Below are positions 2,160 to 8,542 of a stretch of 28,656 bases of DNA, one piece after another. Source of the DNA: a bacterium (lineage in GTDB: Bacteria; CAIWAD01); NCBI GenBank assembly GCA_030429345.1, contig JAUIFJ010000037.1, forward strand, positions 1 through 28,656, in the 5' to 3' direction. The notes beneath the pieces are model-generated. The model did not search any database. It was not told the origin of the DNA and saw only the letters and a program-made list of their open reading frames with translations. The position numbers and the translations under genes are program-made. How positions within the stretch are numbered: position 1 is the first letter of the stretch; every line of letters begins with the position of its first letter.

Positions 2160-4451
2160 CTACCGCGGCGAACCGGTACCGGGGCGTCTGCGGCCCCTGT
2201 GGGGGGCGGTGGCCTTGCGTTCCGGAGCTTCCGCCAGAGCGAAGTCCACTTGCCGATCCTCCAGATCCGCGCGCAGCACAGTGACATCCAGCTCGGTCCC
2301 CGTCGCCAGCACGGTTCCACTGTTCAATCCGACAAGCTCCCAGCGCCGGGCATCATAGTGCCAGCGATCATCCGGAAGCTCTTCGACCGGCAGCAGGCCA
2401 TCACACAATAGATCCGGCAGTTCCACGAAGACCCCGAAGCGCTCCACTCCGCGCACCACTCCCCGGAAGCTCTCTCCAAGGAACTGGCGCAGGTAGAGGA
2501 TCTGGTGCAGGCGAACGCTGTCCCGTTCGGCTTCCTGCGCCAGGATCTCTCGACGATTGGACTGCAGGATCGCCGCGCCCAGCGCCGCCTCCCGGCGGTC
2601 CTTCCCTCCGGCGAGCAGGGATTTCAGCTGCCGGTGAACCAGCAGGTCCGGGTAGCGGCGAATCGGCGACGTGAAGTGGGCGTAGGTCTGGAATCCCAGG
2701 CCGAAGTGGCCCAGTTCCTTGAGGTCATAGCGTGCCTTCATCATCGATCGCAGAACCATTTCCTGCAGCAGCAGACCCTTGCCGCTCTCTTCCGCCTGGC
2801 GGATCACCTGCTGCCAGCCGCTGACGTGGGAAAGGTCGGGCAGGTCCTCCAGTCCCAGGTGCTCGATGAATTCGTGAAAGCGGGATAACTTTTCCCCCGA
2901 GGGCGCTTCATGCACGCGGAAGGGGCAAGCGCGCTCGGCTTTCGAGAGCGCCTGTGCCACCGCCTGGTTCGCGGCGAGCATGAACTCCTCGATCAGGAAA
3001 TTCGCCTCGCGGCTGGTCTTGGCGTGAATCGCCGTGGGCCGTCCATCGGCGTCGCGATCGAATACCGGTTCCGGCAGGGCGAAATCCAGGCCGCCCTTCT
3101 TCAGGCGCCGGCGCTTGAGAATCCGCCACAAGCGGTCCATGTGATACAGCGCCAGGCGATCGGGTTCCTCCCCGTAGGTCACTTCCGGGTCGAATCCGGC
3201 GGGGCGCCGTTTCGGGAACTGCTCCAGGATCTGCTGCACCTGCTCGTAGGCAAAGCGGCGCCGGCTGTGGATCAGACTGGGCGTGAAGCGCGCCGAACGC
3301 ATCACGCCGGATGCGGAAAAGCGCATGAGGGCCGTGAAACAGCAGCGGTCCTCGCCTTCCACCAGGCTGCACAGGTCCGACGACAGGCGGTGGGGCAGCA
3401 TGGGAACGACCTCGCCGACCAGGTAGACGCTGCAGCCGCGTCGCATGGCTTCGCGGTCCAGCGGTCCGTCCTCCTCGACGAAATGGCTTACATCCGCAAT
3501 GTGGACGCCAAGCTCCCAGCCGCCGTCCTCCAGCGGCCGGATCGAGACCGCGTCGTCGAAGTCGCGGGCATCCGGCGGATCAATCGTCATGCAGAAGGTA
3601 TCGCGCAGGTCCTCGCGCCCCTCCTGCGGAGCGATCATCCCCTCGTGCAGCGCCTCCACCTCGGCCAGGACCGCGGGGCGGAAGTCTTCCGGCAGATTGA
3701 AGGAGGCCTTGACGGTTTCCTGCAACACGACCGGCGTGCCCGGCCGGCCGAGGATCCGTGTCACACGCGCAGCAATCGTCCGCGAGGCACCCGCCTCGTC
3801 CGGGCGGATCAGCCGGGCGCGCACCATGTCGCCGTCTTCTGCCCCTTCCGGCAGCTCGCCGTTGATCACGACGCTGCCGCCGAAGCGCGCGCTTTCCGGC
3901 AACAGGACCCAGCTGCGGCTGTAGCGGGCCAGGCGCCCGACCACGTACTGCAGCTGCCGCTCGATCAGTTTCAGGGGACGCGCTTCCCGGGAGGGTCCGC
4001 CGCGACCGGCGACCAGTTCGGCCTCGATGCGATCGTCCTGCAGGTAGCGGTCCAGGTGCTTGCGATGAATGAAGACCCGGTCGCTGCCGTCATCCGGCAA
4101 GAGGAAGCCGTTGCCGCTCTTCTGCACGATCAAGGTGCCGCTGAGCGCCGGCCGGTTGCTGGGAATCACCCAGCGGCGCAGCTCGTCCCGTGTCAACCGT
4201 CCCTCGGATTGCATCTCGCCCAGCAGGGCGCGGAACTCCCGGTACTCCAGGGGCCTTCCCATGCGGTTGTAGAGGCTGCGGCTCTTGAAGCCCCGCCGGC
4301 TGCCCTGCAGAAGGTCCCGCACAGCGGCCGCGGCTGCCCTGCGAGGATCCGTTTCCCTCGCGCCGGCGGAGTCCTTGTGCTCCACGGGGCGGCTGCGATT
4401 GCGGCCTCCGCGGCGGCGCGGCTTCTCCGGGCCTGAATAGCGACGGCTCAT
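2160..4451 (-). CDS. rnr: Ribonuclease R (RNB-family 3'-5' exoribonuclease)
   Basis: The 763-residue protein degrades structured RNA processively from the 3' end, taking part in mRNA decay and rRNA quality control in the cytoplasm. A basic, low-complexity N-terminus (residues 1-40) is followed by cold-shock-like OB domains, one containing SGTLIVQKSGNGFLLPD. The RNB catalytic core follows, with the metal-binding aspartates in TIDPPDARDFDDAVS (about 289-303) and the conserved block AHFTSPIRRYPDLLVHR. A C-terminal S1 domain follows (GVVRGVERFGVFVELPDLL). The length is close to E. coli RNase R (813). The ATG overlaps the prmC stop by 4 nt (ATGA), so translation is probably coupled. It is the last gene before the 16S locus. 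Confidence 0.95.
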   Translation of the reverse strand: MSRRYSGPEKPRRRGGRNRSRPVEHKDSAGARETDPRRAAAAAVRDLLQGSRRGFKSRSLYNRMGRPLEYREFRALLGEMQSEGRLTRDELRRWVIPSNRPALSGTLIVQKSGNGFLLPDDGSDRVFIHRKHLDRYLQDDRIEAELVAGRGGPSREARPLKLIERQLQYVVGRLARYSRSWVLLPESARFGGSVVINGELPEGAEDGDMVRARLIRPDEAGASRTIAARVTRILGRPGTPVVLQETVKASFNLPEDFRPAVLAEVEALHEGMIAPQEGREDLRDTFCMTIDPPDARDFDDAVSIRPLEDGGWELGVHIADVSHFVEEDGPLDREAMRRGCSVYLVGEVVPMLPHRLSSDLCSLVEGEDRCCFTALMRFSASGVMRSARFTPSLIHSRRRFAYEQVQQILEQFPKRRPAGFDPEVTYGEEPDRLALYHMDRLWRILKRRRLKKGGLDFALPEPVFDRDADGRPTAIHAKTSREANFLIEEFMLAANQAVAQALSKAERACPFRVHEAPSGEKLSRFHEFIEHLGLEDLPDLSHVSGWQQVIRQAEESGKGLLLQEMVLRSMMKARYDLKELGHFGLGFQTYAHFTSPIRRYPDLLVHRQLKSLLAGGKDRREAALGAAILQSNRREILAQEAERDSVRLHQILYLRQFLGESFRGVVRGVERFGVFVELPDLLCDGLLPVEELPDDRWHYDARRWELVGLNSGTVLATGTELDVTVLRADLEDRQVDFALAEAPERKATAPHRGRRRPGTGSPR

Positions 4452-5314
4452 CTGCGCACCCCACTGAAAAAGCGTTGCCTGCCCCGGAGATCCAGTCCCA
4501 CCTCCAGGTCCTGTGCCACATCGCGGAAGAGTCCTGCCAGGAGCGGGCCCTGCTCCTCGCCGATCTCGAAGCAGAAGAGCCCTCCGGGCGGCAGCCAGTC
4601 GGCAAGAGTATCACGGAATCGGCAGTAGAACTCCATGCCCTGCTCGTCCTTTGTATACAGCGCGGCCTGTGGTTCGTGCGCCAGCTCTTCCTGAAGCTTG
4701 CCCCTGCGCCCCGGGGGAACATAGGGCGGATTCGAGAGCAGCAGGTCGACCTGCGCCGGGGGCGGTTCTGTCAGCAGATCATGCCTGCGGCAGGCCAGCC
4801 CCTCGCCAAGGCCATTTGCCGCGGCGTTCTCGCGGCAGAGCTCGAGGGCTTCGGTGCTCGCGTCCAGCGCCAGCACGCGGGTCCGGGGCCGTTCCTTGAG
4901 CAGGCTCAGGGCAATGCAGCCCGTGCCGCAGCCCGCGTCGGCCACGCGCAGGGGACCCTCGATGTGAGACACCAGCGCAAGGGCCCGGTCCACCAGCTCC
5001 TCGGTTTCCGGCCGCGGAATCAGGGCCCGCCTGTCGACGATCAGTTCCAGCTCGCGGAAGGGCCAGCGGCCGACGATGTACTGCAGGGGTTCACGGGCCG
5101 CGCGCCTTTTCAGCAGCGGCCTGAGAGAGGCGCGTTCGTCCTCGCCGAGAGGGCGGTCATAGTCCAGGTAGAGATCGAGGCGCTTGCAGCCCAGCCCGTG
5201 GGCCAGCAGCTCTTCGGCCTCGCGGCGGGCATCGGGCAGGCCGGCTTCCCGCAGGAAGGCATCGGCCGCTTCCAGAACGGCAAGCAGGGTCCAGGGGCCC
5301 TTGGCAGGGGGCAT
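4448..5314 (-). CDS. prmC: Peptide chain release factor N5-glutamine methyltransferase PrmC
   Basis: The 288-residue SAM-dependent enzyme methylates the glutamine of the GGQ motif in release factors, increasing termination efficiency. The N-terminal helical substrate-binding domain (about 1-95) precedes a Rossmann methyltransferase domain with the SAM motif DAGCGTGCIALS (126-137) and the diagnostic NPPY motif (195-198). The IPRPETEELV block (about 99-108) is typical of the family. The start overlaps the prfA stop (TGATG), and its own stop overlaps rnr. Its substrate RF1 is encoded directly upstream, which strongly supports the assignment. Confidence 0.96.
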   Translation of the reverse strand: MPPAKGPWTLLAVLEAADAFLREAGLPDARREAEELLAHGLGCKRLDLYLDYDRPLGEDERASLRPLLKRRAAREPLQYIVGRWPFRELELIVDRRALIPRPETEELVDRALALVSHIEGPLRVADAGCGTGCIALSLLKERPRTRVLALDASTEALELCRENAAANGLGEGLACRRHDLLTEPPPAQVDLLLSNPPYVPPGRRGKLQEELAHEPQAALYTKDEQGMEFYCRFRDTLADWLPPGGLFCFEIGEEQGPLLAGLFRDVAQDLEVGLDLRGRQRFFSGVRR

Positions 5315-6390
5315 CAGGAATCCAGGCCGGCGGTCTCGAGCAGGGAACTGAGCTCCGCCAGGCGCAGGGCCTCCAGCAGAGGGGCGATCTCCCCGCCCAT
5401 GACCGCGTCCAGCTTGTGGAGGGTCAGGTTGATGCGGTGATCCGTCACACGGCTCTGGGGAAAGTTGTAGGTGCGGATCTTGGCGCTGCGGTCACCGGTA
5501 GAAACCTGGCTGCGTCTCACGCTGTCCTGCTTCTCCTTCTCTTCCTGGAGCTTCGCCTCCAGGAGCCGGCTGCGCAGGACCTTGAGCGCCTTTTCCTTGT
5601 TCTTGATCTGGCTCTTCTCGTCCTGGCAGGTGACGACCATGCCGGTGGGAACGTGAGTCAGGCGCACGGCGCTGTCGGTGGTGTTGACGCTCTGGCCGCC
5701 GGGCCCGCTGCTGCGGTAGACATCCACACGGATGTCCTTCGGCTCGATGACCAGGTCGACCTCTTCGGCTTCCGGCAGGACGGCCACGCTGGCCGCAGAG
5801 GTGTGGACACGTCCCTGGCTTTCGGTGCTCGGGACGCGCTGCACGCGGTGCACGCCGCCTTCGTACTTCAGAATGCCGTAGGCGTCCTCGCCCTTGAAGG
5901 CGACACTGATCTCCTTGAAGCCGCCCATGGCGCCTTCGCTGGTGGAGAGCACTTCGGTCTTGAAGCCGTTCAGCTCGGCATAGCGCTGGTACATGCGGTA
6001 CAGGTCACCGGCGAAGAGGGCGGCCTCGTCTCCGCCGGCGCCGGCTCGGATCTCCAGGATGCAGTTGCGGCTGTCTTCGGGCGGTCGGGGAACCAGCAGC
6101 AGCTTCAGTTCCTGCTCCAGGGCCTCGATCTGCTCTTCGGCTTCCGCCATTTGCAGCTCGGCCATCTCGCGCAGGTCCTCGTCCTGCTCGGATTGCAGGA
6201 TCGACTGCGCTTCCTCGCGGCCTTCGCTGGCCTCCCGGTAGAGCCTGCCCTTGGCGAGAATTTTGCCCAGGCGCTTGTGTTCGCGCCCCAGTTCCATGGA
6301 ACGGGCGCTGTCGGAGAGCACTTCCGGCTTGACCAGTTCCTGGCCCAGCTCTTCGTAGCGCTCTTCCACCTGACGGATCTTGTCGAGCAT
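5314..6390 (-). CDS. prfA: Peptide chain release factor 1
   Basis: This 358-residue class I release factor reads UAA and UAG. It has the N-terminal coiled-coil domain (1-100), the codon-recognition PxT tripeptide as PST (187-189, in [15 protein letters not shown]) and the catalytic GGQ (231-233, in [17 protein letters not shown]). PxT rather than SPF identifies RF1 over RF2. The ATG at 6390 has GGGAG only 4 nt upstream. A strong terminator (6408-6438) ends just before this ribosome binding site, so expression probably depends on readthrough from rpmE/rho (see findings). It overlaps prmC by one base. Confidence 0.97.
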
Positions 6391-6407
6391 TTCGCTCCCG
6401 AAAAATC

Positions 6408-6438
6408 AAAAAAGGGCCCGCGCTTGAAGCGCAGGCCC
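6408..6438 (-). terminator. intrinsic terminator between rpmE and prfA (possible attenuator)
   Basis: On the minus strand GGGCCTGCGC pairs with GCGCGGGCCC (10 bp, one G-U) around a TTCAA loop and is followed by six T, then GATTTTT. It is a textbook Rho-independent terminator. It lies about 69 nt after the rpmE stop and ends 18 nt before the prfA start codon. Confidence 0.9.
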
Positions 6439-6491
6439 GGAATGGACTCGATGTCCCGAAAGCCGGAGCGGACCTGCCGGTTGTCGCTCCG
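6431..6491 (-). promoter_or_regulatory. candidate antiterminator and competing hairpin upstream of prfA
   Basis: GCAGGTCCG (6469-6477) can pair over 9 bp, with one G-U, to CGGGCCTGC (6431-6439), which contains most of the 5' arm of the prfA-proximal terminator. The two pairings are mutually exclusive. A third structure, CGGAGCG (6485-6491) with CGCTCCG (6464-6470), would sequester part of the antiterminator. This is the classical layout of an attenuator, inferred by eye without folding energies. Confidence 0.4.
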
Positions 6492-6506
6492 CTTCGCGGG
6501 GAAAAG

Positions 6507-6710
6507 CTAGTCGTTCTTGTACTTCTTGTAGAAGCGATCCACGCGTCCCGTGGTGTAGACCTGCTTCTGCTTCCCCGTGTAGAAGGGGTGGCACTGGTCG
6601 CACATTTCCACGTTCATGTCGCCCTGGGTCGTGCGGGTTTCCCAGTTGTTTCCGCAGGCGCAATGGATCTTGGCCAGCTCGTATTTCGGATGGATGGCAG
6701 CCTTCGGCAT
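6507..6710 (-). CDS. rpmE: 50S ribosomal protein L31, zinc-binding form
   Basis: The 67-residue ribosomal protein starts MPKAAIHPKY and ends KKYKND. It has the zinc ligands C17, C19 (CAC), C37 and C40 (CDQC) of the C+ type L31, plus the conserved HPFYTGKQK block. An in-frame ATG exists 22 codons upstream (6776). I chose 6710 because AGGAG lies 7-8 nt before it and the N-terminus then matches the family. It ends in TAG. It sits between rho and prfA, a widespread gene order. Confidence 0.95.
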   Translation of the reverse strand: MPKAAIHPKYELAKIHCACGNNWETRTTQGDMNVEMCDQCHPFYTGKQKQVYTTGRVDRFYKKYKND

Positions 6711-6760
6711 GAGATTCTCCTGAAAATTTCGAACCGGTGAAATAAGCGAAGCACTGTGAT

Positions 6761-6778
6761 ATATGCAAGTCTGCATAT
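6761..6778 (-). promoter_or_regulatory. inverted repeat upstream of rpmE
   Basis: ATATGCA and TGCATAT form a perfect 7-bp inverted repeat with a 4-nt centre (18 bp in all), about 50 bp before the rpmE start in the rho-rpmE gap. Its AT-rich character contrasts with its surroundings, and it could be an operator or lie over a promoter. It does not match a Zur box that I recognise. Confidence 0.4.
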
Positions 6779-6786
6779 CGAGTGGT

Positions 6787-6800
6787 TCGATCGCGATCGA
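6787..6800. repeat. 14-bp perfect palindrome in the rho-rpmE gap
   Basis: TCGATCGCGATCGA is a perfect palindrome 8 bp from the ATATGCA inverted repeat. It could be a protein-binding site or part of the rho 3' end. No T-run follows it, so it is not an intrinsic terminator. Confidence 0.35.
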
Positions 6801-6851
6801 CCCCGTCGCACCCTCTGATCGCCCCTTCTCGCCGGCCTTCCCGGTTCTGCT

Positions 6852-8483
6852 CTAGTTCTTCATCATGACTTCGAAGAACTCGGTGTTGTTCCGGGTCAGG
6901 CGCATTTTCTCCTGCAGGAACTTCATCACTTCCGTCGAAGATTTCTCCGCCTGCAGGTTGCGCAGGATCCAGATCTTGTTCATCACCTTCTCATCCAGCA
7001 GCAGGTCTTCCTTGCGCGTGCCGGACTTGTTGATGTCGATGGCCGGGTAGATGCGGCTGTTGGCCAGGTTGCGATCCAGCACCAACTCCATGTTGCCCGT
7101 GCCCTTGAACTCCTCGAAAATCACCTCGTCCATGCGGCTGCCCGTTTCGATGAGCGCCGTGGCCAGGATGGTCAGGCTGCCGCCGCCCTCGATGTTGCGC
7201 GCCGCGCCGAAGAACTTCTTCGGCTCGTAGAGCGCCACCGCGTCGACACCGCCGGACAGGATGCGGCCCGAATGAGGCACGACCGCGTTGTAGGCGCGGG
7301 CCAGGCGGGTGATCGAGTCGAGCAGGATCACCACATCCGTGCCGAACTCGACCAGGCGCTTGGCCTTTTCGATGACCATGCTCGCCACCTGGATGTGTCG
7401 CTCGGGTTTCTCGTCGAAGGTCGAGCTGATCACTTCCGCGTCGATGTTGCGCTGCATGTCGGTCACTTCTTCCGGACGCTCGTCGATCAGCAGGACGATC
7501 AGCGAGATTTCCGGATGATTGGTGGTGATCGAGTTGGCAATCTTCTGCAGCAGGATGGTCTTGCCCGTGCGGGGCGGGGCGACGATCAGGCCGCGCTGCC
7601 CCATGCCGATGGGCGTGAAGAGATCCATGATGCGCATGGAAATCTCCTTGGGCTCGCGCTCGAGCTGGATGCGCCGTGCCGGGTAAAGCGGCGTCAGGTT
7701 GTCGAAGAGCATCTTGTCGCGGGCGTCGTCCGGATCCGTGTAGTTGACGGCCTGGACCTTGAGCAGCGCGAAGAAGCGCTCGTTCTCCTTGGGCGGGCGG
7801 ATCTGTCCGCTGACCACGTGACCCTTGCGCAGGCCGAAGCGCTTGATCTGGCTCGGGCTCACGTAAATGTCTTCCGGGCCGGGCAGGTAGTTGGAGGCAT
7901 CGCTGCGCAGGAAGCCGTAGCCGTCGGGCAGGATCTCGAGCACTCCCTTGGCGAAGATATTGCCTTCGCGCTGGGCCTGGGCCTCGAGGATCTTGAAGAT
8001 CAGGTCCGACTTGGACAGGCCGGAAGGATTGTCGATGTCCAGGCCCTTGGCCATTTCGAAGAGTTCGCGGATCGGCCGCTTCTCCAGGTCGGAGATGTTC
8101 AAGCCGCGGGCATCGCCGCTTCCACTCTCGGCGGCGGAAGCCTTGGCTTCAGGCGCCTTCGCTTCGGGGGTCCCGCCTTCGGGGGTCCCGCCTTCGGGGG
8201 GCCCGCCTTCGGGGGTCCCGGCTTGGGGCGTTCCGCCCGCAGACTTGCTTTTGGAGGGCGCTTCTTCCACATCCGGAAGAGGCTCGCCGGGAGGAACCGG
8301 CGCCTGGGCGTCCGGAGTCTGAATGGCTGCGTTGATCAGCTCTTCCGCCGCCGCCGCCAGGTCGTCGGACGGGGATTTTTCCTTCTTGGCGGGCTTGTTG
8401 CCGGAAACGCGGGAAGCGCCTACCATTTTTCGACGGGTCCGCTTGGGGGCCGGCGCGCCGCCGGACGGCTTCTGCTCGTCCAT
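6852..8483 (-). CDS. rho: Transcription termination factor Rho
   Basis: The hexameric RNA-dependent ATPase ends untranslated transcripts. The start at 8483 (MDEQKPSGG) has GGAGA 5-6 nt upstream and gives 543 residues; an ATG 12 codons earlier (8519) lacks a ribosome binding site. The protein has a low-complexity N-terminal extension of roughly 130 residues rich in P, G, A, E and K, including tandem PEGGT repeats. Next come the Rho N-terminal helical domain ([19 protein letters not shown]), the RNA-binding cold-shock domain ([11 protein letters not shown]), and the ATPase with Walker A APPRTGKT, Walker [17 protein letters not shown] and the R-loop region. E. coli Rho is 419 residues; the extra length is all N-terminal. 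Confidence 0.96.
8162..8221 (-). repeat. 15-bp minisatellite inside rho
   Basis: Four tandem copies of a 15-bp unit (plus-strand CTTCGGGGGTCCCGC with few changes) encode [10 protein letters not shown] pentapeptides in the N-terminal extension of Rho. The unit length is a multiple of three, so copy-number change would keep the frame. Confidence 0.85.
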
Positions 8484-8542
8484 GTCTTCTCCGTATTGAT
8501 TTTCGGCGGCGCGGTGCATTTACCGCGCTTGCCGCGCTTGCT

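Follow-up and report, generated by a model that had tools for sequence, protein, structure and literature searches.

Organization of the rho-rpmE-prfA locus

The DNA analysed here (the window) is a 28,656-nt stretch of a bacterial genome, G000, that is 98% complete. On its minus strand lies a run of genes encoding the termination factor Rho, ribosomal protein L31 and peptide chain release factor 1 (RF1), followed by prmC and rnr, and the same window holds a 16S rRNA gene on the same strand. The features on which the analysis turns are the following:

6852..8519, minus strand: rho, transcription termination factor (NCBIfam PRK09376.1, E 2e-206, and gene caller; stop codon TAG)
6507..6710, minus strand: rpmE, ribosomal protein L31 (NCBIfam PRK00019.1 and gene caller)
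6395..6399, minus strand: GGGAG, the putative Shine-Dalgarno sequence of prfA (from the sequence)
5314..6390, minus strand: prfA, peptide chain release factor 1 (NCBIfam PRK00591.1, E 6.8e-152)
4448..5314, minus strand: prmC, release factor glutamine methyltransferase (NCBIfam TIGR03534, 224.5 bits)
2160..4451, minus strand: rnr, RNase R (NCBIfam TIGR02063, 597.1 bits against a cut-off of 597.85)
1713-179, minus strand: 16S rRNA gene

Gene calls in this genome were made with a simple codon-usage script, which starts rpmE at the ATG at 6710. The listed 89-aa rpmE reading frame from 6776 begins 22 codons too early (6776-6711 are surplus), and the match to PRK00019.1 begins at residue 25 of that frame. 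As originally predicted, rpmE ends in UAG (TAG at 6509-6507, minus strand); the next base is C, making the stop signal UAGC. The prfA gene is a single open frame of 358 codons without an in-frame stop. Between the two genes lies a gap of 116 nt consisting of GC-rich hairpin sequence, and no Rfam family matched in the rpmE-prfA region.

A strong intrinsic terminator directly precedes prfA

The gap contains two stable hairpins:

6455..6500, minus strand: hairpin 1, directly after the rpmE stop codon (folding, -27.3 kcal/mol)
6408..6438, minus strand: intrinsic terminator, stem-loop 6438-6414 followed by six Ts at 6413-6408 (folding and consensus scan)

Hairpin 1 is distinct from the terminator, and no role for it emerged in this analysis.

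The original prediction of a strong terminator just before the prfA start is borne out. The stem (6438-6428 with 6424-6414) has 11 base pairs, nine of them G-C, a loop of 3 nt and an energy of -23.6 kcal/mol, and the T-run follows it directly. These are the features of an intrinsic terminator (a GC-rich stem of at least five pairs with a short loop, then a T-run), and the structure is beyond chance by form and energy. The end of the T-run is 17 nt from the prfA ATG (6390), and its position agrees with the suggested transcript 3′ end at about 6405.

We favor the reading, to which we give a probability of about 65%, that this structure serves as rpmE's (or rho-rpmE's) own intrinsic terminator. 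Transcription of prfA-prmC-rnr would then depend on partial readthrough or on a promoter in the gap that has been missed. The rpmE terminator would be preceded by a second stable hairpin in the 3′ UTR, and would adjoin prfA because this lineage has no DUF1385 gene at the position where its relatives do. Some polymerases would pass the terminator, so that the supply of prfA-prmC-rnr would stay below that of rpmE; alternatively, a promoter that escaped our scan would add to it. RF1-dependent switching would not be needed. A parallel exists in Bacillus subtilis, where a partial terminator lies between secA and prfB (PMC8073009): there too a hairpin terminator separates an upstream gene from a release-factor gene, the readthrough in our case being the presumed part. 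Counting against this ordinary reading are the stability of hairpin 1, which it leaves without explanation, and the UAGC at the end of rpmE, a signal that is conserved before prfA elsewhere.

Since the terminator stands between rpmE and prfA-prmC-rnr, the downstream genes can be expressed only by readthrough or from a hidden promoter. The original prediction held that there was no room for a promoter and that the three genes must rely on readthrough. Our scan of 6370-6900 indeed found no sigma-70-like promoter, and the terminator does intervene as described. The claim of no room is nevertheless too strong, because a scan of this kind overlooks promoters of other types, and the DNA of a promoter may coincide in part with the hairpins; a hidden promoter would serve as well as readthrough. 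The main rival to the rpmE-terminator reading is therefore that prfA-prmC-rnr has its own promoter in the gap, with transcription beginning within the terminator hairpin or shortly past it, so that the terminator insulates two transcription units. The gap is 116 nt long and the Shine-Dalgarno sequence takes up no more than about 10 nt before the start codon. Similarly tight spacing occurs elsewhere in the genome: in a 720-kb sample of G000 (L104-L143 plus the window), strong terminators precede co-directional called starts by 16 and 19 nt at two further places. From our own reading of the translations we take the genes behind them to be protease-like and glycosyltransferase-like. Against a separate promoter stand the negative sigma-70 scan and the GC-rich hairpin character of the gap, and on balance we regard it as unlikely.

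The rpmE-prfA gap in related genomes

The collection holds five genomes of this phylum, and the search gave no other member of the genus. In the three that share the family of G000, another gene comes between rpmE and prfA, with neither a terminator nor the stems seen in the window. We take the intervening gene to be of the DUF1385 family, a name based on synteny. A genome of the same class has rpmE, a terminator, DUF1385 and prfA in that order; G004 is among the genomes in which DUF1385 lies between rpmE and prfA. There is no match to DUF1385 in the 98% complete G000. The layout of the window thus belongs to this lineage, as its relatives carry DUF1385 in the gap and G000 has no match to it.

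Loss of DUF1385 would be the simplest account of this layout. A candidate remnant of the gene at 6441-6421 (minus strand), where 18 of 21 nt equal the codons for PGLWFQR in the DUF1385 gene of G002, was rejected at P 0.2 against shuffles. With no demonstrable remnant, loss may not explain the gap.

The rpmE stop codon varies among these relatives. It is TAA, TAG and TAG in the three same-family genomes and TGA in the same-class genome; with the next base included, the signals in relatives are TAAG, TAGA, TAGC and TGAG. This variation speaks against the sensing role originally proposed.

UAGC as a possible RF1 sensor

RF2 controls its own synthesis through a programmed frameshift in prfB. RF1 is without an accepted feedback of this kind. 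No RF1 autoregulation was known to the authors of PMC8073009, and no programmed frameshift has been found in prfA (PMC12421855). The switch proposed for the window would share with the prfB system a release-factor gene and a sensor stop codon at which that same factor acts, but prfA here differs from prfB in having no in-frame stop. An older idea uses a stop codon upstream of the gene: as cited in PMC2680264, UAGC is a weak stop signal, and Elliott (1989) proposed autocontrol of RF1 through the weak UAGC of hemA in Escherichia coli and Salmonella. We confirmed that E. coli hemA ends in UAGC just upstream of prfA. The window shares this feature, with a different upstream gene (rpmE) and with a terminator in the gap.

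An Elliott-type feedback might operate in the window without an RNA switch, if stop readthrough or slow termination at the weak UAGC of rpmE altered the fate of the downstream transcript. In addition to the signal itself, this has in its favor that the rpmE frame beyond the stop is open for 399 nt, past both hairpins. The hemA-prfA model, however, is one of readthrough and reinitiation, and the open frame in the window meets no stop short of the prfA start and enters prfA out of frame. In E. coli itself, fusions gave little RF1 by hemA readthrough (unpublished data cited in PMC2680264). Nor is UAGC special in this genome. It ends 52 of 502 genes (10%), so that its occurrence at rpmE is not significant, and it varies among relatives as described above. 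TAG ends 199 of the 502 genes (40%) and is commoner still before terminators (17/26 terminator-followed genes, 65%, versus 182/476 others; p 0.007); the UAG of rpmE is thus unremarkable here. We find no good evidence for RF1 feedback at this locus, and consider an Elliott-type mechanism in the window quite improbable.

In other lineages UAGC at the end of rpmE is more striking. One order (L311-L339), which on its L31 sequence we read as cyanobacteria-like, has prfA mostly directly next to rpmE, and rpmE ends in TAG in 25 of 29 genomes and in TAGC in 21 of 29. The base rates there are 24% for TAG and 3.8% for TAGC among 419 genes, and the gene upstream of rpmE never ends in TAGC (0/29). In the order of genome G049 the corresponding counts are 17/22 for TAG and 15/22 for TAGC, where 15% of the stops near rpmE are TAG and 22% of TAGs have C as the next base, giving an expectation for UAGC of about 3%. 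Binomial figures for such counts ignore shared ancestry, and a comparison with other ortholog groups is the fairer control: in the neighbourhoods of the two orders (18 and 14 groups), rpmE is the sole group dominated by TAGC at such a level, and one other group of the 18-group set is equally fixed, for TAAT. The bias weakens when other orders of the class of the cyanobacteria-like order are included (TAG 17/25, TAGC 6/25, with prfA near), and it is absent from the order of G027 (2/28). Across diverse genomes, UAGC ends rpmE in 15 of 82 cases beside prfA versus 2 of 30 away from it (p 0.15).

The retention of UAGC before prfA in two other lineages means that the broader idea of RF1 feedback is not refuted, and an upstream-UAG feedback appears better supported there than in the window. 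Going by the pattern of stop codons, the conserved weak, RF1-only UAGC upstream of prfA may in some bacteria be an RF1 sensor that sets prfA expression, a tentative suggestion that we think rather unlikely to be right; the UAGC of the window could be an unconserved instance of it. Such a sensor, if real, would be the RF1 counterpart of the RF2 frameshift. In two distant groups rpmE keeps UAGC ahead of prfA, whereas the other stops of the neighbourhoods drift; with these data Elliott's 1989 idea is open again, in a form directly testable in easily grown cyanobacteria.

A C-terminal extension of L31 by UAG readthrough was considered and rejected, as frame 0 after the UAG does not stand out from frames 1 and 2 in either order; in the order of G049 the frames are open in 10, 9 and 7 of 17 cases, which also counts against an Elliott-type readthrough. 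A CCCAGC-type hairpin follows the stop at about 21-26 nt in under half of the TAG-ended cyanobacteria-like loci.

The alternative pairing in the gap

The original prediction viewed the gap as a ribosome-mediated attenuator. When RF1 is low, ribosomes would wait on the rpmE UAG, hairpin 1 would fail to form, a segment of it would pair with the 5′ arm of the terminator, and prfA would be transcribed. The key feature is:

6431..6477, minus strand: proposed antiterminator (6477-6469 with 6439-6431, 9 bp including one G-U)

The pairings were correctly identified, including the 7-bp core of hairpin 1 (6491-6485 with 6470-6464). All the stems exist, and the overlap of terminator and antiterminator is real and makes them partly exclusive. 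The region folds better than shuffled sequences (z -2.95, a score for the whole stretch with all stems together). The 9-bp pairing that would make the switch is not clearly beyond chance (P 0.04-0.09): in dinucleotide shuffles a 9-bp alternative stem has P = 0.041 and an equal or better duplex energy P = 0.088, and stems of at least 9 bp are present at 2 of 51 terminator-like sites of the sampled genome.

We modelled the effect of the ribosome with a partition function in which ribosome-covered bases were blocked and the transcript was lengthened stepwise; the figures hold for equilibrium folding, from which kinetic trapping might depart. By our own estimate, when UAG occupies the A site the ribosome covers the RNA to about 6498. 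With this footprint hairpin 1, which the waiting ribosome was supposed to upset, persists at 0.84-0.95 in transcripts in which the 3′ arm of the terminator is incomplete. A ribosome covering the RNA down to 6492-6488 would behave as the attenuator scheme demands, giving the antiterminator at 0.7-1.0 in most partial transcripts before that arm is made. In the model, therefore, the sensing position is off by several nucleotides, and a ribosome at the sensing codon does not shift the equilibrium to antitermination. Once the 3′ arm has been made the antiterminator is displaced at equilibrium, and the finished terminator stands at about 1.0 at every ribosome position modelled.

The proposed arrangement shares with trp-type attenuation a set of stems that exclude one another ahead of a terminator, and differs from it in that the stalled ribosome (in the model) stops short of the competing stem, the pairing is not clearly beyond chance and the only leader peptide is rpmE itself. 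In the literature library that we searched there was no report of rpmE-prfA attenuation. The scheme could draw on the weakness of UAGC as a stop signal (as cited in PMC2680264). Given also that neither the gene order nor the stems of the window occur in the three same-family genomes, and that UAG is ordinary in this genome, we judge an RF1-sensing attenuation switch here highly improbable.

Terminators after rpmE in other lineages

We surveyed 109 prfA loci, of which 82 have rpmE upstream. Strong terminators directly after rpmE recur in many phyla, with either prfA or DUF1385 as the next gene. In the order of G049 (L204-L225) a terminator lies 50-62 nt after the rpmE stop in all 22 genomes, before prfA or DUF1385. 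The stop was predicted to be held wherever the structure is kept, and this is not what we find: five of these 22 genomes have TAA in place of TAG. In the order of G010, rpmE ends in TGA in 4/4 genomes, and a terminator lies 25-38 nt before prfA in three of the four; the same anatomy is thus found beside a stop codon not recognised by RF1. Among the 82 diverse loci, TAG accompanies 8 of 11 strong terminators versus 20 of 71 other cases (p 0.006), an association that may in part reflect a general preference for TAG in genes with a terminator behind them, such as G000 shows.

In the order of G049 the stem of the rpmE terminator is conserved at its base, with a CGGAAT/ATTCCG-like sequence about 20-24 nt past the stop in most genomes. 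It is not a generic repeat terminator: CGGAAW..WTTCCG followed by five Ts occurs elsewhere 0-4 times per genome, and the paired stem-loop is mostly that of rpmE.
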